From contig ML977002.1 of NCBI GenBank assembly GCA_010015675.1, positions 542,884-606,883 of the forward strand: a DNA stretch of 64,000 bases, read 5' to 3'. The notes beneath the pieces were generated by a model that was given only the letters and a program-made list of their open reading frames with translations, did no database searches and was not told the origin of the DNA. Below are positions 6,620 to 51,805 of the stretch, in pieces (the first letter of the stretch is position 1; each line of letters begins with the position of its first letter). A program made the translations under genes and the position numbers. The DNA comes from Byssothecium circinans. Taxonomy: Eukaryota; Ascomycota; Dothideomycetes; Pleosporales; Massarinaceae.

Positions 6620-7130
6620 AGCCTAGGTTAGTTAGAGGTCTAGATTATAGTAATAAAGGAACCTTAGTAGCGACTATACTAGATTCTCTAGAAGAGCCTT
6701 TCTAAATACCTATCTTCTTTTTAAGAGCTTTTAGTTTAGTAATAGATACTTTCTTATTAGTAAACAGCTTTTATTCTTTATTAGTAGTTAAGTCTAACTA
6801 ATTTTCTAAATCTAGTTTTTAACAATTAAGCTTAACCTTGCGTTGCTTAACTTCTTAAAGCTTATGACAAAGCTATTAACACTTCTAAGTAAAGGTAGCA
6901 AACTTTTTTTTTAAAGGAAAGAGAGAATATTTTACCTTAGTAGAAACGTACTCCACACAGTTACCCTCTAGCAATAGAAGATAGCGCAAACTTTTCTTAT
7001 AGCAATAATAATACAGTTTAGCGACAGCGTAGTCTATAGCACGAATCTAGGTAATATAAGACTACTTATAATTAGTTAATAAGACCTTAGGTATAGTTAG
7101 GTAGAGAACTATAGAATACTTAAGGAGGAT
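6620..7130 (-). pseudogene. Antisense accessory ORF of Gypsy-A, Zn2Cys6-like plus coiled coil
   Basis: This lies between the chromodomain end of pol and the 3' LTR, on the strand opposite to pol. On the minus strand from 7013 down to 6927 the frame gives the spacing C-X2-C-X6-C-X7-C-X2-C-X6-C. Two of the six positions are still Cys (codons at 7004-7002 and 6959-6957) and four are Tyr, as expected from TGY to TAY RIP changes. The same frame continues to about 6620 as a Lys/Gln/Leu-rich, coiled-coil-like stretch whose only stops are TAA or TAG at likely Gln positions. The true start and end are not defined. It parallels the accessory ORFs of Gypsy-C and Gypsy-D. A DNA-binding role is inferred only from the cysteine pattern. 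Confidence 0.6.
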
Positions 7131-20742: not shown

Positions 20743-22592
20743 ACGTAAAGCGCTACTAAGACGGCTAACCTACTAAGACGGCTACTTTTCCTTAGCAATA
20801 CTAAATTACTTAACTTTATTATTATTATCATTTACATTGCTATTTAATATAATAAACTAAGTACTAGCCTCTAACTTAGAAGAACCTTCTTTATCTACTT
20901 AATATATTCTCGCGTTATACCTAGCCTTACCACAGTTACTGTAGTAGTGAATACCTAGTTATCGTACTTTATATTTACTTTCTACCCTTGCCTTTTTATA
21001 GTTCTAAACTATTTTTAATAGTTTAAAACTAACCTAGTCTACTATAAAACTAAACTCTATAGTGCTACCTTTTTAAAACTACTTATATTTACGTATTTTA
21101 CGCTTAGTTACTACTATAAGTTACTGTTTAAGCTCTTTAATGCGCGCTTTTATAAGCGTAGTATTATGCAGCACTAATTTAGTATCTTTAATAAGCTATA
21201 AAAGCCTATCCTACGCCGTTCATAGTAATTAAGTAATAGAATTACGTATAAACTTTAACTATAAGCTAAATTCGCGTATATTACTTAACGTCCTTAATAG
21301 CTATAGCGTCTCTAGTAGTAGGGGTCCTAGTAGAGTACGTATACGTATATTAAAGTAATTAAGTACTACCTACACGTTTAAAGGGACTAGCCTTATTACT
21401 TTAAAAGCCTTTTAATAGTTTTAAACTATAAACACGCTTAAAAATACGTCTTTAAAGGCTAGTAGGAACGCTTCCTTATTAATATAAAAAACGCGCTATT
21501 ACGCTAAGCCCTAAACGATATTAGAGTACTTACGCTTAAACGGCGAGAATAACACTATATTAAGCAGCTAAAGGATGTATAATAAGTGCAGTAGTATATA
21601 GAGCGTAAAGATCTTATTATTATAACAATAATCCTTAAAATCTTAATTAAGGTAGCTTTCGTAGCTATTTAAAATTAATAACTAATAGACGCTAATAGTT
21701 CTTACCTTTATATGCGCGTTAAAGTGCTTTAACTACATAAGACTAAGCTTATTAGTTATTTATCTATTCTTTAAGACTAATAGCTTTTAATTGCGTAGTA
21801 TATTAGCTTCCTAGTACTATAAAGAAATATAGACACGTCCTTTATATATAATAAATAGTAGGGTAAATGTACTATTTAAATATATACTCTAGATATCTAT
21901 TACCTACTCCTTATTACCTAGCTAAACTGTTGTAGGCTTTTCTTACTTTTCTAAGCTAGTAACTACTTTTATAGAGCTAATAATACCTATCTAAAAGCTA
22001 GTCTTATCAAAGTTATATATATTATTATTATATACGCTATACTTTGCTTTAGTATCCTATATAAGCTTAAACTACGCGCTAACTACTTTAAGATCTTCTT
22101 ATAAAACTCTTTAACAGTCCTTTAAATAGTTCTAGACTATTTATAATAGTTTTAAATAATTTATAAACTATTCTATCTAGTTATAGCTAACCTTCTCTTT
22201 ACTCTACTTGCTTAGTAGTTTATTCGCTATGTCTAACACTTCACCTAAGGTAGGCGCGAATCCTCGCGTATTAAGGTTAAGGATATATAAGATGATTGTC
22301 TCCTCTTTAGTTAAGGATAGTTTTGAATAGTTTAAAACTGTTTGGAGCTAAAAGGTAATTCTATTAATGCAGTTAAAGAGGCTCTAATAACGAACGTTAA
22401 AAGCCTTAGCAGCGTATTAGAGGCTTTTAAATTAGCCTAAATAGTAAGCTTAAAGGGCAAGCTTAATTCTACCTTCTTATTAAATAAGTATCACGTTTAG
22501 TAGTTAAGGTATTTTGTAATAAGTATAGTATTAGTATTACTAAGGAAAAGTAGCTATCTTAGTAAGTTAGCTGTCTTAGTAGTACTTTACGT
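20743..22592 (-). mobile_element. pogo-2: Fot1/pogo-type DNA transposon (1,850 bp)
   Basis: Starts ACGTAAAGCGCTACTAAG and ends AGTACTTTACGT, with TA duplications at 20741-20742 and 22593-22594. The internal sequence matches pogo-1 and pogo-3 over the whole length in the same orientation. The transposase frame is destroyed by RIP-type stops. It is inserted in Gypsy-B just upstream of RT. Confidence 0.88.
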
Positions 22593-23968: not shown

Positions 23969-24808
23969 NNNNNNNNNNNNNNNNNNNNNNNNNNNNNNNN
24001 NNNNNNNNNNNNNNNNNNNNNNNNNNNNNNNNNNNNNNNNNNNNNNNNNNNNNNNNNNNNNNNNNNNNNNNNNNNNNNNNNNNNNNNNNNNNNNNNNNNN
24101 NNNNNNNNNNNNNNNNNNNNNNNNNNNNNNNNNNNNNNNNNNNNNNNNNNNNNNNNNNNNNNNNNNNNNNNNNNNNNNNNNNNNNNNNNNNNNNNNNNNN
24201 NNNNNNNNNNNNNNNNNNNNNNNNNNNNNNNNNNNNNNNNNNNNNNNNNNNNNNNNNNNNNNNNNNNNNNNNNNNNNNNNNNNNNNNNNNNNNNNNNNNN
24301 NNNNNNNNNNNNNNNNNNNNNNNNNNNNNNNNNNNNNNNNNNNNNNNNNNNNNNNNNNNNNNNNNNNNNNNNNNNNNNNNNNNNNNNNNNNNNNNNNNNN
24401 NNNNNNNNNNNNNNNNNNNNNNNNNNNNNNNNNNNNNNNNNNNNNNNNNNNNNNNNNNNNNNNNNNNNNNNNNNNNNNNNNNNNNNNNNNNNNNNNNNNN
24501 NNNNNNNNNNNNNNNNNNNNNNNNNNNNNNNNNNNNNNNNNNNNNNNNNNNNNNNNNNNNNNNNNNNNNNNNNNNNNNNNNNNNNNNNNNNNNNNNNNNN
24601 NNNNNNNNNNNNNNNNNNNNNNNNNNNNNNNNNNNNNNNNNNNNNNNNNNNNNNNNNNNNNNNNNNNNNNNNNNNNNNNNNNNNNNNNNNNNNNNNNNNN
24701 NNNNNNNNNNNNNNNNNNNNNNNNNNNNNNNNNNNNNNNNNNNNNNNNNNNNNNNNNNNNNNNNNNNNNNNNNNNNNNNNNNNNNNNNNNNNNNNNNNNN
24801 NNNNNNNN
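23969..24808. other. Assembly gap (840 N)
   Basis: Sequence just before the gap (about 23927-23968) is nearly repeated just after it (about 24857-24898), both ending in AGAAATCCTAGAATATTTTTT. The two flanks may be the same locus or a local duplication. Confidence 0.98.
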
Positions 24809-26165: not shown

Positions 26166-26567
26166 ATGCCGACTCCCTGCGGTCATTGCAAGCTAAAGAA
26201 CTTTTAATGCGTAGTAAAGCTATTAATAGGTTTCTATGCTTATTATATTTAAGCAAAAGCTTATTATGACCTAGTACTGACAAATACTAAGCGTTAAAAG
26301 TTATAAGTAGAATAGCGCCGTCTCCGTTGTAAAATCCTAGAGCTTTGTAAGCGTCTAGCAATCTGCAAGCAAAAGCTATTTAATCTAGAAAAGAAGGAGT
26401 GCTATTAGGTTTTAAATAATATTGCTTTAATCTAGGAGTTAAAGCAACTCGAGACTATAGCTAGTTTGCAAGAACTAACGCCTCTTACTTTTCTATCTAG
26501 GGGTATGGATGCTACTATTCCTCCTTTATCACTTTTACCTAGACTGCTGCTAACTAACTTTGGTTAA
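26166..26567 (+). pseudogene. Antisense accessory ORF of Gypsy-C, Zn2Cys6-like
   Basis: It lies on the plus strand, while Gypsy-C pol is on the minus strand, between the chromodomain end and the 3' LTR. It begins with ATG at 26166 and can be followed for 134 codons to TAA at 26565. Residues 5-34 show C-X2-C-X6-C-X8-C-X2-C-X6-C. The first three Cys are intact (the start reads MPTPCGHCKLKNF) and the last three read Tyr. In-frame TAA/TAG codons fall at probable Gln positions. A Lys/Arg/Glu/Leu-rich segment with heptad-like spacing follows (about residues 55-105). The six-Cys spacing is that of fungal Zn(II)2Cys6 clusters, which in GAL4 are followed by a coiled coil. Function unknown. Confidence 0.65.
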
Positions 26568-29600: not shown

Positions 29601-29803
29601 GGTCCTAAAACTCCTCATATTCTAGTAGTATTATAGGTTAGGGTTTATCCTTTATAAGCGCAACTCTCTATATCTAGATAACTTTTATCTATAAAGGGTC
29701 CTTTTTATAGATCATTTTAATCTTATAAGGTAATATTTTACTAATCCGTCTAGTTTAACTAGGTAAGATTTAGATTACTAGGCTCAATCTTCCGTAGCGT
29801 GTT
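26680..29803 (-). pseudogene. Gypsy-C pol, RT to chromodomain
   Basis: RT has an intact Tyr-Leu-Asp-Asp motif on the minus strand at 29085-29074. RNase H lies at about 28700-28350, integrase at about 28150-27200, and a chromodomain-like end with a KYLVKQK-type stretch at about 26850-26690. The frame contains many RIP stops. The N-terminal part of pol is displaced to 36552 and beyond by the Gypsy-D insertion. Confidence 0.88.
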
Positions 29804-30262
29804 TATTATAATCTAGAAGTGGGGTCGCCACACTTATGTAATAACTAGTCGCACGCCCTAACCAGACAGACGGTCACGAGTAGTAAGTAAGTCACGTGAC
29901 CATCCTAGCGTCCTAAGAATCCTAGAAGTCCTATGAGGGACTGGGACGAGTGAGACGGATAGGATGAAGGGACGTAACTAGTATATAGATGAACTTGACC
30001 TCTACATTATAGGAGTCGTGTTTAACCTTCTACTTAGGATTATAATCTATTCAGTATCTCATACTCTATGATTGCAAGCTTACCTAAGTTCACTAAGTGT
30101 ACGCCCTTTAGACGAACATTACCACGTACTGTTAGAGTACTACTGTGTGTCGCGAATTGATATCTCTTCTAGAGAACCAACTAAGCTCTAGAACCTTAAG
30201 CACCTTTGTTACCTAAAAGCTCTTTAAGCCATCTCTGGTAACAAACCCCCTAGACCTTAACA
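29804..30262 (+). repeat. Gypsy-D 5' LTR (459 bp)
   Basis: Starts TATTATAATCTAG (TG to TA) and ends CCTTAACA. Same length as the 3' LTR at 36088-36546. Confidence 0.95.
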
Positions 30263-30329
30263 TTTTAAATACCCTTAGAAGGATGTCTAAGACACATGAT
30301 ACCTAATCCTACGGTAACGCTAGCAAGGT

Positions 30330-33300
30330 CGCTAAACCAGATCTCTACCATGGAGATCGCGCCAAACTTAAAGGATAGCTCCTGTAAATTGACTTGTACT
30401 TCAAGTTTGCAGCCAGCACTATTAATGACGTAGACAAAGCCTCCTTTGTCACGACCTACATGCGTGGCGACGCTAAATGATAGATTAACCCTTACCTCGC
30501 TAAATACCTAGATAACAATAATAATGACGATGAAGTCATGATACTCTTTAAAGACTATACTTAATTTAAGACCTATCTCTGACAGGTCTTTAGAGTCTCA
30601 AACGAGGAATCCGTCGCAGGAAGGAAGGTGCAACGCCTTAGATAATAACGCTCGGCCACTGAATATGCCGCGGAGTTTCAACACTACGCAATCTAGACGG
30701 GCTAGGAAGATAAGGCACTCATGACAATATATAGATAAGGCCTTAAGGATACCATTAAAATAGAGCTTATGCAGTTAGGAGCATCTATTACTACCTTAGA
30801 GGAACTATACTAGGAATCCATTAGAATTAACGGACAACTATATGAGTTGACATCCAAACTACATAACAAGTGAAGTGGACTTAGCGTGGGCAAGACTAAG
30901 AGTACCTACACCTAACCTAGGTACTTCCCCGCTATAAAGCTACAGAAGCAGTACTTAGATCCTTATAGGTTGCAGCTAATGTAGCTTGATAACGTTAAGA
31001 AAGGGAAAGGGAAGGGCCACCGCTACGAGAAAGAAGCTAGGACGTGCTACTCGTGCGGAAGAACAGGCCACATCACTAGAAACTATCGCGCGAAGCTAGG
31101 AAGAGCTAAGCACGCAGTCCAACGACAGTTAAATATAATCACGGCATCACATGCTTTAGGCTGCCTCCCCGACGTTAAAGGAGATGATGAATGGGAAGTA
31201 ATTAATTCAGGCGAAGAAAGAGGAAACGCTATTAGACGAAGGCTATAGAAACTATCTATAAGAAAAAGGGTTAGCTAAGCCGCTAATCAGATATGGCATA
31301 ATAAGGAAGTTGATACTACGGACAACGAAGTCTAGGACTTCCTTAACAACCCTAACCAACCCCTTAACGCGAGAGAATAATAACTTTAGGACTACTTGCT
31401 TAGTGAACGAGCTAAGGACAATAAAGGACCATCATAGGCTAATAGGGCTCTTCAAATTATTAGTAGAAAAGAAGAATACCTTAGAAAAGAAAATCAAGAT
31501 CCCCATGACTCCAAACTACCTCATACCAAAGTCGCGCAAGGAAACTATCCACGATGGACGGATAAAGACCTAATGTGGTATAATAGTAAAGTCACATTAG
31601 ATAGTGACGAACTAATGGATTAAGGACGCTTAGGATACAATAACTAATACTAGAAGCCTAGCGCAGGACTTAATGATAAGTACCTATACGAAGATCTAAA
31701 CCCCAGGCCTAGGAAGCAACAGAAGCTAAGGCACCGGCAGAAGAAAGCCTATGAAAGGCAGGCCAACTAGGTGGACTAAGAGCTCGCAGAAGGAAGCATC
31801 TAATAAGCGGCATAGTAGAAAGAAATGACTAAAGAATTGCAGTACGATATAGACTATTAAAATGGAAACTACGGAAAGCTTAGCTTCACCTAGTGTAACA
31901 ACGACGGTTATCTCACCCACTATAATGTGAAGGTGAAAGTAAACTATTTCCTAACTATTAAAAAGGATTATAAGTTTAAATAGTATGACTGCTATGATGA
32001 CAAATACCTAACACACTTATATGATAAACGGGCATGACTATAGTTCCTAGGGAAAGAAGATCCCATGGAACTAATAAAGATGAATATGATCGTTAATAAC
32101 ATCTGCACTTAGAGTAAGTAGCAGACATGTCTACATACCAGGTGCAAGAGGCACGCCAAAGAAAAGGAAAAGAATAGATTTAGAGCATCTTTTTTAGACC
32201 CTTACCTGACACTGCTAAAGGGTTGCACACCTTAGAAGCAGTAGGTGAACGCCTAATCAAAATCCTAATCCATCTTGGTAGCAGAAAAATGAAGGCATTA
32301 GTGGATTCAGGATTATAAGCAAATTACATCTTAATAGCAATAGCGCTCTTAGCGGGACTAAGGCCACTATTAAAGAAGGATCCCTACCTACTACACGTAG
32401 CAAATGGACAAGTCATGCTAGAGCAACCTAAGATCTAACATGAAATCACTTTAGCACTCATGAAAATCCACTACTATAGCGAACGAATCACCCTAGACTA
32501 TTTTGAGATAGCCACTCACGACGTCATATTAGGGATCCCTTGGCTAAAGAAACACAACCTAGTAATTAACTAGAAGAACGACACAATATTATTAGTAAAC
32601 TGCGCCTACTAACGCACTTTAAAGCCTACACACCAACGGCGTTTAATAGTAGATGAGAAGGCAATCAATAACATTGCTTTAACAAAGACGTGTTTAGTGA
32701 GAACGGTCAACTCTACAGATGCTACTCAGTTAATAGATTAACAAGTAAGAGTAAAGGAGAAAAAGGCACCTCCAGAGATCCCTAAAGAGTATAGAGAATG
32801 GGAGCACCTCTTTTAGGAAGACGTAGGCGCTACAGCGCTACCTAAGCATTAACCCTAGGACTGCGAAATTACGCTATAGGAAGGAAAGCAACTAACTTTC
32901 AGACTAATCTATTAACTATTAGAGAAAGAGCTAAAGGCTCTATAAGAATACATTAATAAAAGCTTAGTAAAGGGCTATATATAAGAATTAAAGTTACTAG
33001 TAGGATACCTAGTCCTCTTCGCCCTAAAGAAGAATGGATCGCTGCGACCATGTATAGACTACTAGAAACTAAACGAAATTATAGTTAAGAATTATTATCT
33101 ATTACCTAATATTAGAGAACTATAGGATTGACTAGCGCGTGTAAAGATATTCATGGCTCTTAACCTATAAGACGGATACCATCTTATCCGCATAAAGGAA
33201 GGCGACAAATGGAAGACAGTATTTAGGACATGATATGGACACTATAAATACACCGTGATGCCTTTTAGTCTTACTAACGCCCTAGTGACTTTCCAAGCAT

Positions 33301-35535
33301 TAATTAATAACGTGTTGTAGACATACCTGGATATCTTTGTAATTACATACTTGGATAATATACTTATCTATTTAGAAAACGTCGAAGAACATGTAAGACA
33401 TGTTAAGCAAGTACTTTCGTGCTTAGATGCCGCAGACCTGCACCTTAAGCCAGAAAAATGCGAATTTCATAAGGAAGAACTTAACTTCCTAGGATTCGTA
33501 GTTAACACCACAGGGGTTAAGATAAGCCTAAAGAAAATATAAGTGGTATAGGACTAGCTAACACTAACAATGGTTAAAGGAGTGTAGGAATTCCTTAGAT
33601 TCTGCAACTTTAATAGGAGGTTTATTAAAGAATACGCCTTAATAACCTTACCCCTAGTAGGACTCACTAGGAAGGACGTACTCTTTAGATGGTTAGAAGT
33701 ATAAGAAAAGGCATTTAAAACCTTAAAAGAAAAATGTATAAGCCCACTAGTACTAGTGGCATTTAGGAGTAGAGAACTAATGAGAATTAAAACGGACGCA
33801 TCTAATCTCGCACTTGGAGCAGCAGCTAGTCAGATGAGAAATGGCTAATGGCACCCTATTGCCTACTACTTAAGAAAGTTCTTAGGACTAGAAGAACGTT
33901 ACGACGTACATGATAAGGAACTAATGGCTATTGTGGATTCATTAAAGCACTAGAGGGTATACGTAGAAAGCTGCTCTAAACTCACCGTCTTTACTAACTA
34001 TAAGAACCTACTCTACTTTATGATAACTAAACAACTTAATAGAAGACAAGTTAGATAGTCTAAGTTACTTAGATAATACAAATTTAAGATCATGTATATA
34101 CTAGGCAAGGAGAACGGACGGGCTGATGCCCTCAGCTGACGAAGCGATATCGCAGGAACAAAGGAAACCATTGAAGCACTGATACTATGAGCTAATAAGG
34201 ACGGGACCTTAGGACCAACCCAATAGCTAAATGGCATCCTGCGAATTAACAATGAAGTACTAGAGGAACTATAGGAAGAGATCATATAACAACATTATGA
34301 TGACCCTGTACACGGACACCCTAGCATTTAAAGGACTATTAAACTAATTTAGAGAAATTATAAGTTTAAGGGCATAAAAGAAAAGGTTACACACTTTATC
34401 AGTAGATGTGCGGACTGCTAGAAAAACAAACACAGCATGCACGCATCCTATAGAGAAATGCAACCCATTAAGCTACTAAAGACGCTATAGGAAGACATCT
34501 CTATAGACTTTATAATAGGTCTACTAGTGTTAAGGGACCTTACGACTAGGATAACCTATAACGCCATCTTAGTAATCGTTAATAGATTCACGAAATACGT
34601 AGAAATAATACTATTTAGAAATGACTATAACGTGGAATAACTTGGACACGTGATCCTAGATTGACTTATTAGATACTATAGCATGCTAAAGTTAATTATT
34701 AGTGATAGAGATAAGCTCTTCACATTAAATTACTAGAAAACGCTAATAGCTGCAATTAGAATAAAACGCAAGCTATCCACAGCATACCATCCATAAATGG
34801 ACGGACAGACAGAAAGGACGAACCATATAATGAAGACATATCTGCGAATCTATAGTAATACCTAGTAGAATAATTAGGTTTCCCTTTTACCTATAGCTTA
34901 ATTAGCGTACAATAATAAAATATTAGAATCTATAGGACAAACACCATTCTACGCAAACTATAGGAAATACCTAAATCTCTTTAAACGCACACTGCCAGGA
35001 GGCAAGGCAGCGGCAGCTTTAATAATAATAGAGGACTTAAAGAACGTACACTAATAGTTATGGGTCAGCCTTAAAATGGCATAACGCAAAAGCATTTCAT
35101 ACGTAAACACAAAATGAAAAATGGCACCTCAGCTAGAAAGGGGGGATAAAGTATACCTACTTATGAAGAATCTTCGCATAAAACGACTAAGCAAGGGACT
35201 AGACAACGTTAAAGTTAGACTATTTTTAATATAAGCTAGGACAAGCCCTGTCAACTACTAACTCTAGCTACCTAAAGAAGCTAAGATACACCTAGTATTC
35301 TACGTATCTAGATTAGAACTAGTAGACCCTAAGACACTATTACAAAAAACATTCCATTATAAAGTTAAGGAAGAAAATGAATTTAAAGTTAAAAAGATCA
35401 TGGACTAGAGAGATTGAAAAGGCAGAAGAGAATACCTAATTAAATAGAAAGGTTACCTAGAGAATGAAAACACATAGGAACTAATTACACACCTTACGGG
35501 TTGCAAGTATCTCCTAAAGAACTAGCATTAACATT
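30330..35535 (+). pseudogene. Gypsy-D gag-pol, RIP-damaged
   Basis: A retrotransposon gag domain occupies about 30330-30880 (start reads YHGDRAKLKD). The CCHC knuckle is at 31045-31086 (TCYSCGRTGHITRN, last Cys now Tyr). A gag C-terminal motif of the form D-D-X-Y-X-T-H-L-X-D-K lies at about 31993-32025. The protease Asp-Ser-Gly is at 32304-32312. RT has the catalytic Tyr-Leu-Asp-Asn at 33349-33360, and 63 codons from 33351 remain open. RNase H spans about 33780-34140, the integrase core about 34490-34870 (with a STAYHP.MDGQTERTN-type stretch), and the chromodomain about 35380-35510 (EYLIK.KGYLENENT). In places only TAG/TAA at Gln/Trp sites break the frame. Not functional as it stands. Confidence 0.92.
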
Positions 35536-36052
35536 CTAAAAAGGCAACTAATCAATGGTAGCAGCACTAAGCGCGGCCTCTAGATTTACTAAAGTAATAT
35601 TCTAAAGCAGAGCCTCCTGCGCTTCTAACGCCTCTAACTCCTCTACAGACGATATTCCTTTATTAAACATTTCCTGCTCCTTCTAACGAAGTAGTTTCTT
35701 TTGTTTACAAAGCCTTAAAAGCTTCTCCCTCACTAGACGGGCGCGCTGTAGAGCGGCCTTAGTAACATCCTCTTCCACACGTAGGTAAGCCTCCTCTTCT
35801 TCTTCTAACGCCTTGAGACGACCCATCTCCTTATCAATTTTCAAGAAATCTGGCAAGGGTAAACCCGCAGGTTCATATAAGCCGCGCCCGACGCGAGTAC
35901 AGTTGTTGCAACGCTTGTGAAGGGACGACAGTTTGTAAGGGAGCTAGTAGTTAGCGTAGTAAGAATAAGTAACTATGGCGAAAGAACCGCGACTATCAAT
36001 ACGGTCGGCAAGCTAATAGTGGTAATAAATAGAATAAGAGGGTAATTATTAA
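35536..36052 (-). pseudogene. Antisense accessory ORF of Gypsy-D, Zn2Cys6-like plus coiled coil
   Basis: On the minus strand, opposite to pol, filling the space between the chromodomain and the polypurine tract. The frame shows C-X2-C-X6-C-X8-C-X2-C-X7-C. The fourth and fifth positions are still Cys (HKRCNNCTRVGRG) and the others are Tyr, the RIP outcome of TGY. After an AGLPLPDFLK linker comes a strongly charged Glu/Arg/Leu-rich region (about 35850-35690) typical of a coiled coil. From 35955 to 35551 only about two stops occur in about 135 codons, far fewer than in pol. TAG at 35538-35536 is a likely end. The start codon is not resolved. Shared position, orientation and layout with the ORFs in Gypsy-A and -C argue for a real gene. 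Confidence 0.65.
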
Positions 36053-36087
36053 CTTATAAGGACATTAAGCTCTAAGAGGGGGGATAG

Positions 36088-36546
36088 TGTTATAATCTAG
36101 AAGTAGGGTCGCTATACTTATGTAATAACTAGTCGCACGCCCTAACTAGACAGATGGTCACGAGTGGTAAGTAAGTTACGTAACTATCCTAGCATCCTAA
36201 GAATCCTAGAAGTCCTATGAGGGACTAGGACGAGTGAGACGGATAGGATGAAGGGACGCAACTAGTATATAGATGAACTTAACCTCTACATTATAGGAGT
36301 CATGTTTAACCTTCTACTTAGGATTACAATCTATTTAGTATCTCATACTCTATGATTGCAAGCTCACCTAAGTTCACTAAGTGTACGCCCTTTAAACAAA
36401 CATTACCACGTACTGTTAGAGTACTACTATGTGTCGCGAATTAACATCTCTTCCAGAGAACCAACTGAGCTCTAGAACCTCAAGCACCTTTGTCACCTAA
36501 AAGCTCTTCGAGCTATCTCCGGTAACAAACCCCCTGGACCTTAACA
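36088..36546 (+). repeat. Gypsy-D 3' LTR (459 bp)
   Basis: Starts TGTTATAATCTAG with the TG intact and ends CCTTAACA. It aligns end to end with the 5' LTR. Confidence 0.95.
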
Positions 36547-36551
36547 GTGTT

Positions 36552-40177: not shown

Positions 40178-42669
40178 CTTACTTTTACTTCCTTACTCTA
40201 CTCTAAGTATAGGTTCTTATAAATATATTACCTAACTAATTCTTAGCTTTTATAGTTTCCTTCTTCTTCTTTATATCTTAAAGGAGCTTTAATATAGCTT
40301 TAATAATAGAGTCTTATAATAATAGTAAGGCTATTATTAAACTATAGACTTCCTACTATAAAGAAGTAGAGAGAATTAAATTTAAACTAGGTATATTAAG
40401 AAGCTAGACTAACTTATTATTAGAAGGAGAAGTAGTAGAACTAGCTTTAAAAGCCTTTTTTTTTTAGTTATAATACTAATTTAATATTACCTTAGACTAT
40501 TTAAGAACTAGGTATAAGAGATAAAGATAGCTAGCATTACTATAATCCTAATTAGGCTTCTTTAAATATATAGCTTTATTTTATCTCTTTATCCTTTAGT
40601 ACTATTAATAGGAACTATCTAATTACTAGTTAATCTAAAGACTCTAGCTATTTATCTTCTCTTAAAATTTTAATTAATTATAGGTCCTTTACTTTAGCTT
40701 TAGATAGAGGTTTAGTAATATAGCCTCTAGTAACTTTTTTAATATTCCTTTAGTTTCTACTATAGGTTTTAATGCTATATGCTTTATCTATAATAGTTAA
40801 AATATTACTATCTTATATATAGTCTTTTTAAAGAGAGTTATAGAACTATTCTACTTTTATAATTACCTTTTATTCTAGTTCTAAGTTCTCTACTAATCTT
40901 TTATTATAACTAAAGTTAATATTGCCTAATTAAGTATTATTAACTACCTTCTTTCTATCTAAGCCCTTAATATTAGAGAAGTTTAAGTTTAAATCTTAAT
41001 TAGTAATATTAAAGTACTAAGTAATTTCCTTTACTATAAACTTCTATAGGTTATTACCTTAAGATTAAAGGAAGTATCCTTAGAAGGTTTCTAAGTTTAT
41101 ATAGTATAGGCTATAATACTAGTTAGAGTAGCCTATTTTAGGGTTCTTATACTTATAGTACTAGCTATTCTTAAGTAACTTTTTTCTATAGATATAATCC
41201 TTAATTTTATGTTTAACTAACTTATATATATATTAGCTATGCTTCTAAACTTTTTAATCTCTAATCTACTAAATATTAGCCCTTAGGTTAACTATAGGTA
41301 GATAGGAACTTAAGAAAGACCTATTATTCTTATCTAAATAAAGTATTAAGCTAACTAGCTTAGCGTACGTATATTAGTAATTCCTAGGCTTAGTTAATAT
41401 TATATTAGTAGTAAGGTAACCTATTTTCTATTTATTAAACTCTTAGATATTTAATAAAAAGCTTTTTATACTATTAATAAGGTCTTAGACATATAGCTCT
41501 AGTTTAGGCTTACTTTATTATTACTAACTAGTTATAACTATTAGTATATTAGAAAGCTAATATTTTAAAGGTATAGGGAGAGGAATTATAGGACGTAATA
41601 GCTATTTAGCTTCCTTTTAGGCTAGAAAGTTAGTACTCTAAGTAGTAGATAGTACTAAGATGTATATAGCCTCCTATTATTTATAGATCTCTTAAAGAAA
41701 CTTATATATCTCTTTTATATTATACGTCTAAATATTACCTCTAACTAGCTAATATTCCTTTAGTATACTAAATATAATTAACCCTTAATCCTCTTATAAG
41801 AAACTTTTAAAAAAAAAGCTATCTAACTTTTATTTTACTAATCTAGTATTAGTTAATTATACCCTAGATAAAGTTAGTAAACTAATAGTAGTATTTATTT
41901 AATAAGAAAGGATTATAGTATATAGTAGTAAGCTAGGATTTAAGAAAGGCTTAAGTAGTTTTCTATTACTTAAGATTAGACTAAGAGTATTCTTTCAGTA
42001 AATCCTTCTTAAAAGTCTTATATAAGACTAATAAGAGTTTAAAAGATAGTATTTAATAGATATACTAGCATTAAGCAAGCTTATAGAAGTATAGAATTAA
42101 TTACTTTTTTACTTTATTATTCTAACTAGCTTTATATACTCTAAACTTATAGTCTTTAATAAACTAACTAATATTCTTACTATTAAACTAAGGGGTATTT
42201 AAGTTACTTAGTAGCACAGGAAACTAAATAGTAGACTTAAAGTATAGGAAACCCTATAGTAGCTCTTTAATTACTTCTTAAGCTTATTTTTTTTTCTCTT
42301 CTTTCTTTACCCTTTTAGGAGTCTAAGGATAGATTAAGTAATAGTAGCTTTCTTAATTTTTTTACTTAGCTTATTATTAGAATTACTTTTACTATCCTTA
42401 GGATAAAGATCCCTTATTTTTTACTTCTTTTATAATTCTACCTATAAAGTAGTAATCTACTACTTAAGCTTAGCTTAAGATTTTTTATCTTTTACTTTTA
42501 TACTCCCTCTTAAAGAACCCTTAGGCTTATTATAAACTATAGTAATTATTAGAGGTAGGCTAAAGTTAACTTAGGCTTTTCCTTTCTAATTATTAATAGG
42601 TGTTAGCTAATAAGAAGGTATAGTTTCTAGTGTTATAATATCTTTAAAGCTTAATATTATATTAGTATA
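40178..42669 (-). pseudogene. Long unrecognised coding-like relic (minus strand), possibly Gypsy-B gag
   Basis: A minus-strand reading of about 2.5 kb is coherent in composition (Lys/Gln/Leu-rich, with a coiled-coil-like stretch at about 42480-42400). It is broken mainly by TAA/TAG at Gln-type positions. It is contiguous with 25056-25473 and lies upstream of Gypsy-B RT in the right orientation, so it may be the gag side of Gypsy-B. I found no diagnostic motif, and 2.9 kb is long for gag. A different transposon family is also possible. Confidence 0.4.
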
Positions 42670-42671
42670 TA

Positions 42672-44522
42672 ACGTATTCTACTACCAAACCGCTTAAACT
42701 ACTGAACTGTTTAAAATTCCTTAGCAATACTAACTTACTTAACTTCATCGTTATTATCGTCTGCATCGCTATCTAAAAAAATATACTAAGTACTAGCATC
42801 TAACTTAGAAGAACCCCTTTTATCTACTTGATACGTTTTCGTGTTATGCCTAGCCTTACCGTAGTTGCCGTAGTAGCGAACACCTAGTTATCGCACTTTG
42901 TATTTACCCTTTACTCTTGCCCTCTTATAGTTCTAAATAGTTCTTAATAGTTTAGAACTATTCTAGCCTACAATAGGACTATACTCTATAATGCTACCCT
43001 TTTAAATATACTTGCGCTTGCGTGTTTTACGCTTAGTTATTACCTTAAGTTACTTTTTAAGCTCTTTAATATGCAACTTTATAAGCGCAGTACTATGCAG
43101 CACTAACTTAGCGTCTTTAACAAGCTGCAAAAGCTTACCTTGCGCCATTTGTGGTGATTAAGTAATAGAATTACGTATAAACTTTAACTATAAGCTAAAT
43201 TCGCGTACATTACTTAGTATTCTTAATTGCTATGGCGTCTCTAGTAGTAGGGGTCTTAGTAGGGTACGTATACGTACATTAAAGCAATTAAGCACTACCT
43301 GCGCGTTTAGAGGGACTAGCCTTAATGCTTTAAAGGCCTTTTAATAGTTCTAAACTATAAATACGCTTTTAAACGCGTTTCTAAAGGCTAGTAGAAACGC
43401 TTCCTTATTAACGTAAAAAACGCGTTAGCGTACTAAGTCTTAAATAATCTTAGAGTACCTACATTTAAGCAGTAAGAATAACACTATATCAAGTGGCTAG
43501 AGGATGTGTAATAAGTGCGCTAGCATATAAAGCGTAAGGATCTTATTATCTTAATAATAATCTTTAAAATATTAATTTAGGTAGCTTTTATAGCTATCTA
43601 AAATTAGCAACTAATAGACGCCTACTACGGTATCTTTTGTATATGCATTAAAGTGCTTTAACTATACAAGGCTAAGCTTATTAGTCGTCTATCTATTCTT
43701 TAAGATAGAGAGCTTTTAATTGCGTAGTATATTAGCTTCCTAATACTATGAAGAGATATAGATACGTCCTTTATAAATAATAAATAATAGGGTATATTTA
43801 CTATTTAAACGTATACTTTAGATGTTTATTACCTATTCTTTATCGCCTAGCTAAACAATAGTAGGCCTTGCTCGCCTCTTTAAGCTAGTAACTACTTTTA
43901 TAGAACTAATAATACCTATCTAAAAGCTAGTCTTATTAAAGTTATAGATATTATTATCGTGTATACCGTACTTAATTTTAGTATTCTTTATAAGCTTAAA
44001 CTACGCACTAATTACTTTAAGATCTTTCTATAACATTTTTTAATAGTTCTTTAAATAGTTCTAGGCTGTCTTTAATAGTTCTAAATAGTTTACAAATTGT
44101 ACTAACTAGTTAATGCCTACTTTGTTACTACCCCGCTCGCGTAGTAGTTTATTCGCCATATCCAATACTTCGCCTAACGTAGGCGCAAATCCTCGCGAAT
44201 TAAGGTTAAAGATGTATTAGACGATCGTCTCCTCTTTAGTTAAAGATAGTTTTAAACTATTTAAAACTATTTCTAGTTAAAAAAGTACTCCTCTAGCTCG
44301 TTTAGATAGGACGCGATGTTTGACATTAAAGGCCTTAGTAGCGCGTCGGTAGCTGTTAAATTAGCCTCTATTGTATGCGGCAAGGGTAAGCTGTAGCCTG
44401 CCTTCGTGTTGGTCTTGTTCTGATTGGTATAGTTAAGGTATTTTCGCGTTGAAGATAGTAATGGTGTTGCCAAGGAATTTTAGGCAGTTTAGTAGTTTAG
44501 GCGGTTTAGTAGTAGAATACGT
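42672..44522 (-). mobile_element. pogo-3: Fot1/pogo-type DNA transposon (1,851 bp)
   Basis: The ends ACGTATTCTACTACC and GTAGTAGAATACGT form TIRs with two tandem boxes and lie between TA dinucleotides (42670-42671 and 44523-44524). The minus-strand transposase relic reads, in order, the N-terminal segment, a NFNKTSFQIG box at about 43950-43920 (NFDETGFQMG in the family, carrying the first catalytic Asp), and a PLKR-type box nearer the C-terminus. This is the DDE layout of Fot1/pogo. It is the least RIP-damaged of the four copies. Confidence 0.9.
44273..44473 (-). pseudogene. N-terminal fragment of the pogo-3 transposase
   Basis: A 66-codon open stretch begins just inside the right TIR of pogo-3. 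It reads LATPLLSSTRKYLNY at the start and stops at a TAA, after which transposase homology continues in other broken frames. It is the remaining open part of the transposase N-terminus and not an independent gene. The first codon is TTG, so the natural start is not defined. Confidence 0.6.
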
Positions 44523-44524
44523 TA

Positions 44525-45372
44525 TATATCCTCTAGCTACTTAATATAGTATACTTCTTACTACTTAAGCGTAAGTACTCTAAGATTATTTAGGGCTTAG
44601 TATAAAAGCGCGTTTTTTATATTAATAAAAAAGTATTCTTACTAGCCTTTAAAGATACGTTTTTAAGTATATTTATAGTTTAGAACTATTAAAAGGCCTT
44701 TAAAGTAATAGGGCTAGTCTCTTTAAATATATAGATAGTACTTAATTACTTTAATATATATATATATATACCTTACTAGGACCCCTACTACTAGAGATAC
44801 TATAGCTATTAAGGACTCTAAGTAATATACGTAAATTTAGCTTATAGTTAAAGCTTATATATAATTCTACTACTTAGTTACTATAAATAGCACATAGTAG
44901 GCGTTTATAGCTTATTAAAAGTACTAAGTTAGTACTATAAGGTAGCGTACTTATAAAGGCGCGTATTAAAGAGCTTAAAAAGTAACTTATAGTAGTAACT
45001 AAGTAAAAAACACGTAAGTATAAGTATATTTAGAAGAGTAGTACTATAGAATATAATCCTATAGTAGACTAAAATAGTTCTAAACTATTAAGAATAGTTT
45101 AGAACTATAAAAGGGCAAGGATAGAAAGTAAAGGTAAGGTATAATAACTATAATAACTAGGTATTTAGTGCTATAGTAACTATAGTAAGACTAGGTATAA
45201 TATAAAAATTTATTAAGCTAATAAAGAGGGTTCTTCTAAGTTAGAAGCTAGTACTTAGTATATATTTTTAGATAGTAATATATATAATAATAATAATATA
45301 GTTAAGTAAGTTAGTATTACTAAGGAATTCTAGGCTATTTAGTAGTTTAGGCTATTTAGTAATAGAATACAT
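44525..45372 (+). mobile_element. pogo-4: truncated Fot1/pogo element (848 bp)
   Basis: Homologous to the right part of pogo-1 to -3 in inverted orientation. The right TIR ends AATAGAATACAT followed by TA. The left side is cut inside the transposase region, exactly where pogo-3 ends. Strongly RIP-mutated (CTATTTAGTAGTTTAGGCTATTTAG for the tandem boxes). Confidence 0.82.
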
Positions 45373-45374
45373 TA

Positions 45375-45906
45375 TCCTCATTATAATAATAACTTGTTAG
45401 TTTAGATAAGCTATAAGTTTCTTAGTTAAGTAAATAAGAAGCAAAGTTTACTTATTCTTACTTTAAGGGGCCCTTAAAATTTAGATGCTATAACCTATAT
45501 ATAGTAAGGGCTATAGACCTACCTCCTAGCAACTAAGGGGAATTATAGAGCTAATATAGCAATATATCTAAAATATGCCTTATTAAGTATTTACCTACCT
45601 ACCTCTAGTACTAATAGCTATATTATAGATCTTTTTATTCTTTTAGCCTAATAATTTTATTATAATACCTCTAATAAAGCTAATATAGATTAGACCCTCT
45701 ACTAAAGGAGGAGCTCGTAAGAGGAGAGACTATTAAATATAAAGGGGGATATATAGTGTCTAGGTGCTAAAGGCTAGGGAGTAATTTACTCTACGCTGTA
45801 AGGTATTATAGATAAGCGCTGCTGTTAGTATAGAATAAGTTTTCATAGTTTTTCTTAGCTAGTAGGCTCCTCTTAGCTTAAGACTAAGAAGTAAAATAAG
45901 GAGCCT
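45375..45906. other. AT-rich edge of the transposon block
   Basis: AT-rich sequence with RIP-like composition and no recognisable element end or gene. The change to balanced composition occurs at about 45,900. Confidence 0.6.
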
Positions 45907-47021
45907 AGGTGAACGCTACTGCAGTAGCTCTAGATCGCTGGTCAAACACCCCAAAGGGGTGCTCAGAAGGCGTTAAAATTGAAATTCTCTCACTCACTTC
46001 AAGGAGCGATCCCGATCCACATGCGCTTGAGCACTATTTGGAGACTCTTTGCTCTGATCTCCAGAAGAAAATCTAGAATAGGTACTATGCTGTTCTCTTT
46101 GCCCTAGATGGACTTCTCGTCGCACTTGGAGGGAAGAGTCTTGTGCAGTTGCATTCGACACAGTGTTTTCAACCACATGGACTGATGTGTGGGGATTTCA
46201 TACCAAAAGTTGGATGCTAGGATAATTGGATTAGACAGGCCATAAGGGCCGATCCCATGGAAGAACCAAACTTAAGGGACCTTTATGGGTAGTCCGACTC
46301 ATGACTGGTGATGTGATAGTGCTGTCGGTAATTTAGCTGGCGTTTACGCGCTAGGCAATCGCTCCTATCAGAGTCCACCGCGTGTTAGAGGGAAGTCCCA
46401 CGTGATGGAATAGCTGGAATGTACCTGGGTAGTAACTGTCGTCATGTGGCTAATTCAGGCGTTGAAAGCGGAGCCTTTGCACTGAGGACGATGTGCACAT
46501 TGAGCCCTTGAGCCCGAACGCGTCCATGAATTTTGGGATGAATATGAAAGAGATACAGAAAGCCGTCAAAGTGATCATGTGTTGTGCGTCCCTCCCGTGG
46601 CGCATAGCTGAGCTCGGAAGGCGTACAGCTGAGCTCGGAAGGCACACAGCCGCAGACTCGGCGGCGCTTAACCGCATTGAACCAGCTGGCGTCATCCAAA
46701 AGCTCAAACTGAGTTGCGGCGCAACAGGTTTAAGACTCAGCCTCTCATACAAAATGAGATGCTACTGACTTCTGATCGTGGACTAGCAACTCCTTCTGTA
46801 TCTGAATATAATGGCTTGTAGTTTCCTGAGGATCCAGACCATTCAATGTTCATTCCAAGGTTGTTTCAGCCCGGTTTTCACGTGTTAATTTCTTTATCGT
46901 ATTTTTGGAGGGGCCTATAATTACATATTCTCTCTGTTTATTTGGTCAAGACGACGCCCGAGTCCTACCAAACTTTTGAATCGAGAACCTCCTACAAATT
47001 GAGTAAATTCCTGTATACACA
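45907..47021. other. Intergenic, balanced composition, no gene recognised
   Basis: Short open frames occur on both strands (up to 100 codons at 46450-46752), but they overlap each other and match no family I know. A 15-bp perfect palindrome CACCCCAAAGGGGTG lies at 45947-45961. A 17-bp direct repeat AGCTGAGCTCGGAAGGC occurs at 46606-46622 and 46627-46643. The last few hundred bases probably hold the promoter and 5' UTR of the gene at 47022. Confidence 0.6.
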
Positions 47022-48302
47022 ATGGGAATGGGAGGCTCAGAAGGCAGCGCAGTCGACCCAGCGGCTCGCGACAAATACCTCCTCCGCGTCACAGCAGGAC
47101 CTTCATACGACCCTTCAACGCACCAGGAGGTTGCCGTCAATGGAGAAGAGCCAACTCTTATCGAAAACGACATCATGACCTGCTATCTCAAAGTAAAGAT
47201 ACGCGACTACCATGGCCTGCCGCGAGGATCGCCAGTCTCATCAGATTACTTTTCCCATCCGCTCCACACATCTGACCGCTATTCGATCGGATTTTCTTTC
47301 ATCCCAAAGAAGAACATCAAGGGGAGCGATTTGCTCACTGGTTTCGACTTTGACCATTCGATAAGAGACAGATTACCGCCGGGGTTCCGGTATGCGATGA
47401 AGATTGTTACCACGATTGTGGATCCCGGAATCTTTTCGGACCCCTATTCCGATAAGCCGTATCTCTATGGACCTGGACTGAGTTCATTTTTCGCATTCCG
47501 GATTGGCGAGCACACGTCAGAAGTACCAGCAGAAGAGCAGTTGATGACGCACGATTCAGACATGAAGGGTGTCATCGAAGAAGGCGCTCACGGAAGCGGC
47601 CAGCGTATCCGCGCAGACCAGAAAATCCCCGCCAAGGCGTCAAAGAGGAGGAAGAACTTTTTGGATCAGAAGAACATGGATGACTTTGTTTTTGAAGCTG
47701 GGCGAATGTACCAGGCCGACTTCTTCAATCCGTATCTCGACTTTGCGAACTTTGCGTTGAGGATACCGGGGTTTTCGATCTCGGTGGTGCGATATATCGA
47801 CGATAAAACGCATGCGCTGCGTTTTGTGGTGAAGGACAAGAGTACGAACGAAGTCCTGTTTGTAGTCATTTTCAACCTGCTGTTCGGACAGCAGCTGGCA
47901 GAGACGTTGGATGGGGAGAAGGCCGAGGACACGAAACGAGTACCAGCCGATGGCGAAGATGAGAATACGCTGGAACGCCCGGACACCTCATCCTCATACG
48001 AAACGCCTCGGTCATCGGGGTCTCGTTCGTCGTCAGTACCACAGTCAGATGTGGAAGACGCAGATCGGGAGTCGAGGCAGGACAAACAAACTGCTGCAAC
48101 TACGCTAGTGAGCTCCATCTATTCCGGATTTGCTTCGTTAGGGTTCGGTAGGGCTTCTAGCAGCTCGGGGTCTGATGCGACGAGCAAGAGCGCCTCTCCG
48201 ACAAGGACGGAGGATAACAAATCGCTTGAAAAGAAAGTGGAGGAGTTGGACGAAGTTGCGGTGGAATCATATTTGCAAAGCAAGAACAGTAATATTGCAT
48301 GA
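47022..48302 (+). CDS. UPF0590/DUF1769 family protein
   Basis: A single uninterrupted exon of 426 codons, with a fair start context (ACACAATGG). The protein matches the fungal UPF0590/DUF1769 family, of unknown function. The N-terminal half has the family pattern of a LLRVTAGPSYD entry, a conserved SDYFSHPLHTSDRYSIGFSF stretch (about residues 75-95), FDFDHSIRD.LPPGF (about 109-123), and an aromatic IVDPG.F.DPYSDKPYLYGP segment. A Lys/Arg-rich loop (about 205-215) precedes the MDDFVFEAGRMYQADFFNPY block and a beta-rich region to about residue 292. The last about 130 residues are Ser/Glu-rich and probably disordered. No signal peptide or membrane segment. It is the first intact host gene next to the transposon block. 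Confidence 0.9.
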   Translation: MGMGGSEGSAVDPAARDKYLLRVTAGPSYDPSTHQEVAVNGEEPTLIENDIMTCYLKVKIRDYHGLPRGSPVSSDYFSHPLHTSDRYSIGFSFIPKKNIKGSDLLTGFDFDHSIRDRLPPGFRYAMKIVTTIVDPGIFSDPYSDKPYLYGPGLSSFFAFRIGEHTSEVPAEEQLMTHDSDMKGVIEEGAHGSGQRIRADQKIPAKASKRRKNFLDQKNMDDFVFEAGRMYQADFFNPYLDFANFALRIPGFSISVVRYIDDKTHALRFVVKDKSTNEVLFVVIFNLLFGQQLAETLDGEKAEDTKRVPADGEDENTLERPDTSSSYETPRSSGSRSSSVPQSDVEDADRESRQDKQTAATTLVSSIYSGFASLGFGRASSSSGSDATSKSASPTRTEDNKSLEKKVEELDEVAVESYLQSKNSNIA

Positions 48303-49300
48303 GCGGCTGGTGTGATGAGTCGTGTATTTGACATTAGAAGGGTCCTGCTACCATAGAGTCATAGACGATATCGTACTTTGGGCGATTTTTGCCGTAATTC
48401 ATAGTAATAATATACCCTTGACACTCATGACCTCAAACGTATCGCATGGCACATGCATCTCATCTGATTGTTTCTGCATTCTGTGCATAGCGCTAGCAAA
48501 CCAGCACTGTGATGATAGTGCAAGTGGACGCGACAACACCCCAACCCATGCGACCAGCATAACGAGTTCAAGGAAGGTTACCATGTCGTGAACCTCCGGC
48601 CGGCTTTACTTATTCTCACTAGGCCTCGACCACAGCGATGTCTCAGTGATTCTCAAGGGTTGGGCACGGGGAGTTCACCGAGTGCACAGCATTGGGTCTA
48701 GCGGCAGCCTCAAAACTGCGGGAATGCTTGAAACTCTGCCTGACACATCTCACGCTTCTGTCGACAACTCAAGGGCAACTGCACACGCATGCTTGAGCTG
48801 CAGAATACCCGGAGAGTAATTATACTCGAAATAATGGAGATCTGGCGGCTGTCTTGTCTCGGCGCGAGTGCAAACCGTCGCAAGCCACTTTCCCGTCCAC
48901 AACCATGATATCCCGTCTTTCGGAGCTAGAAGTTCCATGCGGGACACAACAACGGCGACGCACGGCCGTGAAAATGTATGTCACAGGGCACACTGGAAGC
49001 CCTGTGTTTCGGGGGAGACGCGTTCCGTTGGAGTGCGCATCTCCTTAGTTCTGTGTGGGCGTTCGAGAGCGAATCAGATCAGTCGTACTTCCGGCTCATG
49101 GAGTTTCCGACTATGTCTTTATATCCCACACACCGCTCGCTGTATTGTATGCCTCCACACTCTCTTGTTGCCTCTGATATTTCAACTAGAGAGCCACATA
49201 CATTTTTATCCTCTCTATCATAATGTTCAGTACATATTATCTGGACGTTGCGCTGCTTTCGCATCCTATCCTCGCTTTTATCACCGTTCATCACCCCAAG
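48303..49300. other. Intergenic, no gene supported
   Basis: Open frames of up to 181 codons (48868-49413, plus) overlap the start of the next gene and resemble nothing known. The last about 150 bases probably contain the promoter and 5' UTR of the secreted protein gene. A CAAG/TATA-poor, mixed-composition stretch; nothing else seen. Confidence 0.6.
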
Positions 49301-50273
49301 ATGAACGCGAAGACGTCGAATTTGCAGTATTTCGTCTTCTCTTTCCTCTCGCTACTCATGCTGCGGTATGCATCGTCTACGTACTTTTCATCGCCAAATC
49401 AGTTCGTGCTTGATACATGCACGAGTATCGACCAGCCGAATCCGATCGCTTCTTTGTATCCAAACAATGCCACTGGTACTTTGAATGGGACGATAGCAGT
49501 CCTCCCGATATCGCTGAAGCTGGCGCGGAAACTCATTCCATCACAATACGGTATTCTGGAACATGCATACCGAGCTCTTCTTCCGTCATTCCCTGAAGGA
49601 ATGTACCCTGCGATTGTGCAAGCAGTACACGATCATGAGGTCCAAGCGTTTGGGTACAAGATTGATGACTTCTCTGTACGTCTCCTCCTTTAAATGTACA
49701 ACGCAAAACTAATATGCGCAGCGTACCGGGATCGAGTTCCCTTTCGTCGATCTTCTTGGCGACGGCCACACATCCTTCAAATGGGCGCCATCACTCCTCA
49801 TGACTGCCGGCCATGAAATCGCCCTCAAAGGTGCTGGCGACTATGGTACCAATACCTTCCCCGCCTCTTTCGAACCCGGCTGCGATGCCTACCGCGCAGT
49901 CCCCAACTCCAAGAAGCCCGGCACCACCTACTTCAGCGCCAGCAGTCTAACCGGCGCCGAATCACTGACTACTCTTTTTGCATCTACCACTGAAGCAATG
50001 TTTCCTCTCTCTTTCTTCAAGAACTTCACCAACCAGCCGACGTTCGCCGATGGCAAGACCTGCGACAACATGATCCGGTTGTTCGATACGTCTGTGTCTG
50101 CGGCCGGAAAAGGCATCGAGCGCGTCAAGGGTACCGTGCGAGCCAACATTCACCCGTTTGCTGAAGAGCAGGAATGGAGGAATGTTTATGGTCTACGGCT
50201 AGACTCGGCCTTTATCGAAAACAACTACCTCCCTTGTAGTAGCTTCCAAGGATATACTAGCGACTACGAATGA
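49301..50273 (+). CDS. Secreted protein, acetoacetate decarboxylase superfamily-like
   Basis: Two exons, 49301-49675 and 49722-50273, joined across a 46-bp intron (GTACGT..GCAG, branch CTAAT). The splice keeps the frame DDFS|RTGIEFPF. The product is about 308 residues. From ATG 49301 the N-terminus is a clear signal peptide (NLQYFVFSFLSLLMLRYASS). An in-frame ATG 26 codons upstream (49223) is possible but would bury it. Family-like blocks are LYPNNATGTLNGTIAVLPI, LIPSQYGILEHAYRALLPSF, FPEGMYPAIVQAVHDHEVQ, FPFVDLLGDGHTSFKWAP and FADGKTCDNMIRLF, with several Cys and N-glycosylation sites (NNAT, NGT, NFT). I assign it to fungal secreted proteins with an ADC-like fold by recall. Its substrate is unknown, and enzymatic activity should not be assumed. 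Confidence 0.7.
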
Positions 50274-51665: not shown

Positions 51666-51805
51666 TTAGTGTTCGTATTGGACAAACATCAAAAGAATGG
51701 AGCATAGGTCTGAACAATTTCCACCCCCCCCCCCCCCCTAAAACAAAGCTTCCAGAACCCCTCTCTCTCTGTGTGTGCGTGTGCTTAAACCCCTTTTCAA
51801 ACAGT
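51666..51805. repeat. Homopolymer and dinucleotide tracts between convergent genes
   Basis: A run of 15 C at 51724-51738 and a CT/GT-rich tract at about 51762-51783 lie between the 3' ends of the MetE-like gene and the protease gene. Confidence 0.9.

Follow-up and report, generated by a model that had tools for sequence, protein, structure and literature searches.

Structure of Gypsy-D and its antisense gene

The 64,000-nucleotide stretch of the Byssothecium circinans genome analyzed here (contig ML977002.1, positions 542,884 to 606,883; hereafter the window) contains a Ty3/gypsy retrotransposon, Gypsy-D, with a gene in antisense orientation between pol and the 3' long terminal repeat (LTR). 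This antisense gene and the U3 region of the LTR have been replaced as one unit, from the stop codon of the gene to the TATA box, on a shared backbone of pol and R-U5. The genome assembly spans 48.4 Mb in 109 contigs, and the window consists of an AT-rich stretch mutated by repeat-induced point mutation (RIP), followed by gene-bearing DNA. Gypsy-D lies at 29804-36546 on the plus strand and is nested in Gypsy-C, an element on the minus strand; a third element, Gypsy-A, is on the plus strand.

With its LTRs, its target site duplication, and an integrase and chromodomain in pol, Gypsy-D is a Ty3/gypsy chromovirus. The 459-bp LTRs (29804..30262 and 36088..36546, both plus strand) are identical at 426 of 457 positions and flanked by a 5-bp duplication, GTGTT, at 29799-29803 and 36547-36551. 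Over the 459 bp, the LTR pair differs by 32 transitions, 24 of them in CpA context, and by no transversion. The 3' part of pol (34302..35561, plus strand) contains the integrase zinc domain PF17921, a Tf2-1-type SH3 domain (PF24626; 35142-35318, plus strand), and a chromodomain (PF00385; 35382-35519, plus strand), and ends at an in-frame stop codon (35559-35561, plus strand) common to all six copies compared. Because the pieces of its pol are only 34-44% identical to Gypsy-A and Gypsy-C, Gypsy-D belongs to a different lineage, as an earlier reading made from the sequence alone (the sequence-only reading) had proposed.

The antisense gene (35494..36057, minus strand) comprises 187 codons plus a stop. 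It is arranged tail-to-tail with pol, with an overlap of 68 bp, and it starts 30 bases from the 3' LTR. Judged by its sequence, the window copy is the RIP-mutated remains of a real gene: it has eight internal stops, and its start codon reads Ile. A six-Cys, Zn2Cys6-like stretch (35875..35967, minus strand) retains two of the six cysteines and has Tyr at the other four positions, and a long-helix stretch, possibly a coiled coil (35659..35844, minus strand), matches residues 72-133 of a relative, P0002. The antisense frame between pol and the 3' LTR and its Glu/Arg/Leu-rich stretch are thus present as the sequence-only reading had described them. Its count of about two stops in about 135 codons applies to residues 15-150 (136 codons, two stops) but not to the full frame. 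Likewise, the spacing that it gave, C-X2-C-X6-C-X8-C-X2-C-X7-C, is not literal in the window, where a Cys-only pattern (C2C6C5-12C2C5-8C) had no match in the six frames of the 64 kb, but is found exactly in P0002 and other unbroken relatives.

A DNA search of the genome recovered 22 copies of the Gypsy-D antisense stretch, 75-100% identical. All of them have either Cys or Tyr at each of the six cluster positions. One copy is free of stops over both the searched stretch and the full 187 codons; a second is stop-free over 35566-36057 and has two stops beyond. The start codon is Met in 8 copies and Ile in 14. Transversions, which RIP does not produce, varied at fewer columns of the gene in this 22-copy set (8/492) than of pol (34/889; p 0.02) or the LTR (24/331; p 6e-5). 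They were distributed 0/2/6 over the three codon positions of the gene (p 0.03), compared with 10/6/18 for pol as a positive control (p 0.04) and 8/11/5 for the LTR as a negative control (p 0.3). A second type of the gene, type E, along which all 11 E stretches could be aligned, gave 1/3/7, and the two types pooled gave 1/5/13 (p 0.003).

The eight stops and the loss of four of the six cysteines in the window copy could be taken as signs of a chance open frame or a RIP artefact. This explanation is ruled out by the codon-position bias, by the Cys/Tyr pattern at 22 of 22 Gypsy-D loci, and by a profile of the relatives that matches the window gene at an E value of 2e-65, with no other significant match in the window. 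The relatives include unbroken genes, and the chance origin that the sequence-only reading had allowed for therefore fails for Gypsy-D. We also consider it very improbable that the antisense RNA alone matters, through control by double-stranded RNA, and that the protein is incidental. Antisense RNA control has been discussed for other elements (in excerpts of PMC7264820), but the conservation here is at the level of the protein, in the six cysteines, the codon-position bias, and the many unbroken frames in other organisms.

Relatives and predicted fold of the antisense protein

When the window translation was searched with X at the stops, 10 relatives were found at an E value of ≤0.01, the best of them about 60% identical over 98-100%. 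Two profile searches, both of which scored only the approximately 8,000 candidates sharing most words, yielded 45 and 56 proteins at an E value of ≤0.001, giving 98 distinct relatives with the query members included. Alignment A4 holds 35 of the 45, omitting 10 short proteins of 58-160 residues, and alignment A5 combines 50 of the 56 with another two of the 45. Most of the 98 are unnamed or "hypothetical"; two are called "TolA-binding protein," and no other function is given. Organisms named are Didymella, Botrytis, Monilinia, Pyricularia, Cytospora, Gaeumannomyces, Cryphonectria, Corynascus, and Drechmeria. We found no relatives in viral contigs or in contigs of prokaryote genomes. The type D protein, encoded by Gypsy-D, shares 62-70% identity with P0002, P0003, and P0008, which come from other sources, and in a two-sequence comparison 30.5% identity over 154 residues (E value of 2e-14) with P0085 of Botrytis cinerea.

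Several features of this family are zinc-cluster-like. Zn2Cys6 domains have the spacing C2C6C5-12C2C6-8C, and 68 of the 98 relatives, fragments included, match it strictly, while 84 match a slightly wider form; 11 of the 14 that lack the wider form have ≤147 residues. After the six-Cys stretch, a long Arg/Lys-rich helix recurs. More members touched Zn_clus than any other Pfam model (21 of 35 at an E value of ≤10, best 0.012), although the best score shown, 13.9 bits, missed the curated cutoff of 21 bits for PF00172. In a profile comparison with the Protein Data Bank, 10 of 26 rows were Zn2Cys6 proteins. Two predicted models had a mean predicted local distance difference test (pLDDT) score per ten residues of 87-98 across cluster and helix, and Zn2Cys6 DNA-binding domains made up 13 of 16 and 8 of 10 of the structural rows shown for them (for example, Leu3 at 1.5 A over 37 residues). 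In Foldseek, a Leu3 domain was the top row, with an E value of 3.5 that is not significant. Structural rows for NikR, a nucleoporin, and spliceosome and conoid proteins were taken as chance or long-helix matches. Scans of 19 proteins (9 at an E value of ≤10 and 10 at ≤1) had no bZIP model in the rows shown. On the basis of these models, the antisense protein looks like a Zn2Cys6-like DNA-binding regulator. Relatives P0002-P0009 also share an acidic-aromatic C-terminal tail (DWS, mostly VDW), possibly an activation domain.

Joint replacement of the antisense gene and U3

Gypsy-D pol occurs at 36 places in the genome. Matching the downstream sequence by eye, we found the type D gene at 22 of them, the type E gene at 11, a diverged type E gene at one (C56, 68%), neither gene at one (L089), and a truncated sequence at one (L090). 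In total, pol is followed by a D or E-like gene at 34 of the 36 places. The type E protein has the six-Cys stretch and the long helix and belongs to the same family (profile E value of about 6e-18 for L046), yet it is only 25% identical to the type D protein (E value of 1e-8). In all 11 type E stretches, comparison with L001 shows nucleotide homology between the types as far as 35496-35498 and again from 36262-36263 onward. The first boundary coincides with the stop codon of the antisense gene (35494-35496) and the second with a TATA-like core, CTAGTATATAG (36262..36272), whose exact motif is found in 19 of 22 type D and 9 of 11 type E stretches. Between these boundaries, from about 35497 to 36261, there is no nucleotide match to type E. 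The full differing block (35375..36261) comprises the chromodomain end of pol, the antisense gene, the polypurine tract, and U3 as far as the TATA box, so that the upstream region of U3 in Gypsy-D (36088..36261, plus strand) has been exchanged along with the gene. Within type D, L016 and L013 are 86-94% identical over the block, counted per 100 bases.

The sequences on either side of the block do not separate the two types. Transversion distances in pol were 0.0056 within D, 0.0082 within E, and 0.0089 between them, in a set from which L020, too short, and L088-L090 were left out. None of the 1,068 sites with enough rows had a fixed transversion between D and E, and 14 of 25 informative sites had both states in both types. 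When the comparison was extended toward the end of pol, 11 fixed transversions and one nearly fixed appeared at 35375-35490, within 121 bp of the end of the gene, and six sites between 34526 and 35306 differed in frequency between the types (p < 0.05). Distances in R-U5 were 0.019 within D, 0.022 within E, and 0.026 between them, with no transversion fixed. In a nucleotide tree of pol, D and E were intermixed; we prefer the transversions to this tree because RIP distorts it. The sequence-only reading had suggested comparing gene and pol trees, and the outcome is that the gene does not simply follow pol, since different versions sit on near-identical backbones. Furthermore, 9 of 11 type E elements have an E-type U3 also in the 5' LTR position, about 6-7 kb away, and the mosaics have therefore passed through retrotransposition. 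Locus L089 (G000:C1:635005-637500) represents a third kind of block, in which pol and R-U5 of the Gypsy-D type surround a shorter, unrelated middle with no detectable antisense gene.

Differences this extreme between versions on near-identical backbones would be unexpected of a general chaperone, and the six-Cys spacing differs from that of the CCHC knuckle of Gag. Both observations speak against a role in replication or packaging, in which the protein would be a nucleic-acid chaperone or nuclear-entry factor whose zinc cluster binds RNA or cDNA irrespective of sequence. The Arg/Lys-rich helix would suit such a role, and accessory functions of this kind have been proposed for plant antisense genes (in excerpts of the review PMC7264820), but we regard it as improbable.

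In three of the four types tested, the stretch of U3 just upstream of the break contains repeated motifs of its own. In D, a 9-bp tandem repeat, CGTCCCACC, is present in 2.8 copies in the less mutated L016, with its window counterpart at 36229-36253, and its score was reached by 7 of 1,000 resampled sequences. In E, L046 has the 10-bp repeats TAGTAATTAG and ACTAAGCACC, and L048 has similar ones; the U3 of type A has a repeated CGTAGTA. Tests of repeated heptamers against shuffled sequences, chosen post hoc with the sequences already seen, covered the U3 of types D, E, A, and C. Repeated heptamers were in excess in D (value reached by 7/500 and 18/500 shuffles), in E (0, 0, and 5 of 500, leaving out L081, which does not have the exact motif), and in A (12/500), with no excess in C (102/500). 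Six stretches located after the TATA box had no excess either (159 to 456 of 500). A bacterial-type promoter scan of the LTR, which is uninformative for a fungus, returned nothing.

The chromodomain-coding end of pol (35382-35519) lies in the diverged block, and given the 11 fixed transversions at 35375-35490, this chromatin-reading domain may be exchanged along with the antisense gene and U3. It is conceivable, though in our judgment unlikely, that the protein acts on the host, through chromatin, the silencing or RIP machinery, or integration targeting, and that it varies under counter-defence or target choice while U3 travels as a neighbor. Exchange of the chromodomain end with the block favors this explanation because a chromodomain reads chromatin, and adjacency would by itself account for the joint exchange. 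In addition, U3 variability has been described with no mention of an antisense gene in excerpts of PMC10787394 and PMC1838419. A host target fits less well with the sharp break at the TATA box and the U3-specific repeats beside it, or with the predicted layout of the protein, since a long helix after a Zn2Cys6-like domain is the arrangement of sequence-specific DNA binders.

Antisense genes in a second lineage

The slot between pol and the 3' LTR is also occupied in the other two elements. When Cys or Tyr was allowed at each position, a Zn2Cys6-like pattern occurred three times in the window, in each case in an antisense slot: that of Gypsy-D, 6927..7013 in Gypsy-A (minus strand), and 26178..26267 in Gypsy-C (plus strand, Gypsy-C itself being on the minus strand). 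The spacing had been widened after sight of Gypsy-A, and a narrower first form finds only Gypsy-C and Gypsy-D. In a Markov control, the widened pattern averaged 0.42 matches per 46 kb and reached at least three in 1 of 100 sequences, and the narrower averaged 0.07; randomized sequence, which the sequence-only reading had raised as a test of chance, thus yields the pattern more rarely than the three times seen. Neither the type D profile nor a wider one had a significant match to Gypsy-A or Gypsy-C in the window. The link to these two elements depends on the Cys/Tyr pattern and on their other copies, whereas the case of Gypsy-D is settled independently of the pattern by the profile match. Among genomic copies, the narrower pattern was found at 20 of 30 loci recovered with the Gypsy-C stretch, several of the other 10 having matched in LTR parts only. 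Loci L054 and L058 had two matches each, and an extra match in L068 belongs to a neighboring type E gene. All 22 Gypsy-D loci show the pattern, with one further match elsewhere in L004 and in L019. The proposal of a conserved antisense module is supported in three window elements of two lineages and by the relatives in several Pezizomycotina.

Gypsy-A, Gypsy-C, and a further type, F, show much the same block replacement as D and E. Gypsy-A and Gypsy-C have pol in common (80%), as well as R-U5 up to 25746, where we read a TATA-like stretch of Gypsy-C by eye, and a 79-base leader stretch matches; there was no match between them in U3 or the gene body. Nine copies of C and 12 of F were compared. 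Outside the block, transversion distances between the two types were similar to those within them: distances in pol (found in 10 of 12 F copies) were 0.020 within C, 0.022 between C and F, and 0.012 within F, and those in R-U5 (11 of 12) were 0.039, 0.038, and 0.030, respectively. By a half-length criterion, the gene body of C matched in none of the 12 F copies and U3 in one. The leader distance was 0.050 between C and F, compared with 0.013 within C and 0.004 within F. In longer alignments, the LTR and leader of F are still 69-77% identical to C, and the gene has therefore changed more than U3 in this pair.

Possible role of the antisense protein

Taken together, these results lead us to lean toward a model in which the antisense gene encodes the element's own transcription regulator and is exchanged together with its target in U3. 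The protein would be translated from an antisense transcript that begins in the 3' LTR, would bind zinc and dimerize through its helix as Gal4-type factors do, and would recognize the repeats that lie in U3 immediately before the TATA box. It could then tune sense transcription of elements with the same type of U3, and possibly also the antisense promoter that drives it. Regulator and target adjoin at the 3' end of the genomic RNA, and both could therefore be moved jointly when reverse transcriptase switches templates, with strand transfer in R and a switch back near the end of pol. Matched pairs of regulator and U3 would then be retained, in the way that repressor and operator stay together in phages. 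Binding to U3 of the LTR, which the sequence-only reading had suggested, is a proposal with circumstantial support in the predicted Zn2Cys6-like fold, the joint exchange, and the U3-specific repeats. The anti-silencing role that it had offered as an alternative gained no support from these results, and none of them contradicts it.

The main caveat to self-regulation is that joint exchange is expected from adjacency alone, even if the two parts do not work together. No homologous breakpoint exists between the gene and U3, because these neighbors have no homology between types. Nevertheless, adjacency does not explain why the block diverged beside near-identical flanks, why it ends at a TATA-like sequence in two lineages, or why repeats are found in three of the four U3 types tested.

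A more far-reaching version of self-regulation, which we consider possible but doubtful, is that fungal chromoviruses carry cassettes resembling phage immunity systems. Each protein would recognize only the U3 of its own type, thus defining cross-regulation groups, and swapping the cassette would let an element escape resident control. The resulting frequency-dependent pressure would drive the hypervariability of U3.

Relation to known antisense genes

Antisense genes in the slot between pol and the 3' LTR, including brtn and the antisense open reading frames of plants, are already known, as is hypervariability of U3 upstream of the TATA box in crapaud, according to excerpts of the papers cited below. 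brtn is an antisense gene of Boty-like Ty3/gypsy elements in Botrytis cinerea, published in 2011 (Zhao et al., Virology 417:248; via PMC8365987, PMC7264820, PMC4227169, PMC5987419). According to excerpts of these accounts, it resembles the gene of Gypsy-D in lying between pol and the 3' LTR of a chromodomain-bearing fungal element. P0085 of B. cinerea, related to the Gypsy-D protein, is a candidate for BRTN. The excerpts on brtn, in contrast to our findings for Gypsy-D, mention neither a zinc cluster nor a fold, nor an exchange that includes U3. An excerpt of PMC5987419 refers to a transcript from Monilinia that resembles truncated Pol and BRTN. The plant genes have the same position and orientation, and the Grande protein has been reported to be nuclear, but the plant proteins have no clear similarity to database proteins, and the review as available in part (PMC7264820) never uses the word zinc.

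A functional parallel is HBZ of human T-cell leukemia virus type 1 (HTLV-1), an antisense gene that is expressed from the 3' LTR and encodes a regulator of the element's own sense transcription (excerpts of PMC3185765 and PMC6950816). HBZ is a bZIP protein, whereas the Gypsy-D protein has a predicted zinc cluster and long helix, and its antisense promoter is only putative. With Gal4, Put3, Leu3, and Hap1 (PF00172), the Gypsy-D protein shares the six-Cys spacing, the helix after the cluster, and perhaps the fold, as far as predicted; it differs from these transcription factors in falling below the Pfam cutoff and in being encoded antisense in a retrotransposon. U3 variants on a largely common internal region have been described, in excerpts of the sources, for crapaud of Podospora (PMC10787394), Tnt1 (PMC1838419), and Ty1/Ty2 hybrids (PMC10787394). 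In crapaud, the variation precedes the TATA box, and recombination at a template switch of reverse transcription was suggested (excerpts of PMC10787394). The crapaud main text, as far as it was available (PMC10787394), does not use the word antisense, whereas the variable unit of Gypsy-D includes a regulator-like antisense gene.

Among the matches listed in our literature search on antisense genes, zinc clusters, and U3 in retroelements, which rests on excerpts and whose scope did not include the 2011 brtn paper, none described an antisense gene with a zinc cluster or its joint exchange with U3. New here are two non-homologous blocks of antisense gene plus U3, in 22 and 11 copies, on one backbone of pol and R-U5. 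Retrotransposon antisense genes have had no settled function, and accounts of U3 hypervariability have so far named no partner; the two problems are linked by a zinc-cluster gene that is exchanged as a block with U3. If our model is true, elements carry a self/non-self control of transcription, and many small "hypothetical proteins" in fungi could be annotated as regulators of retroelements.

Other features of the window

Several further repeats lie in the window. Members of a family of about 1.3 kb, 78-89% alike, are found in direct orientation at 17318-18588, 20737-22006, and 42666-43935 and inverted at 44522-45375. An LTR-like sequence at 14176-14413 resembles the LTR of Gypsy-A and perhaps belongs to another element. 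The AT-rich stretch includes a run of 840 N at 23969-24808. Adjoining the repeat block, the gene-bearing DNA at 46000-64000 has a GC content of about 50%, with no RIP signature from about 48 kb onward, and contains long frames such as that at 58804-61650 on the minus strand.
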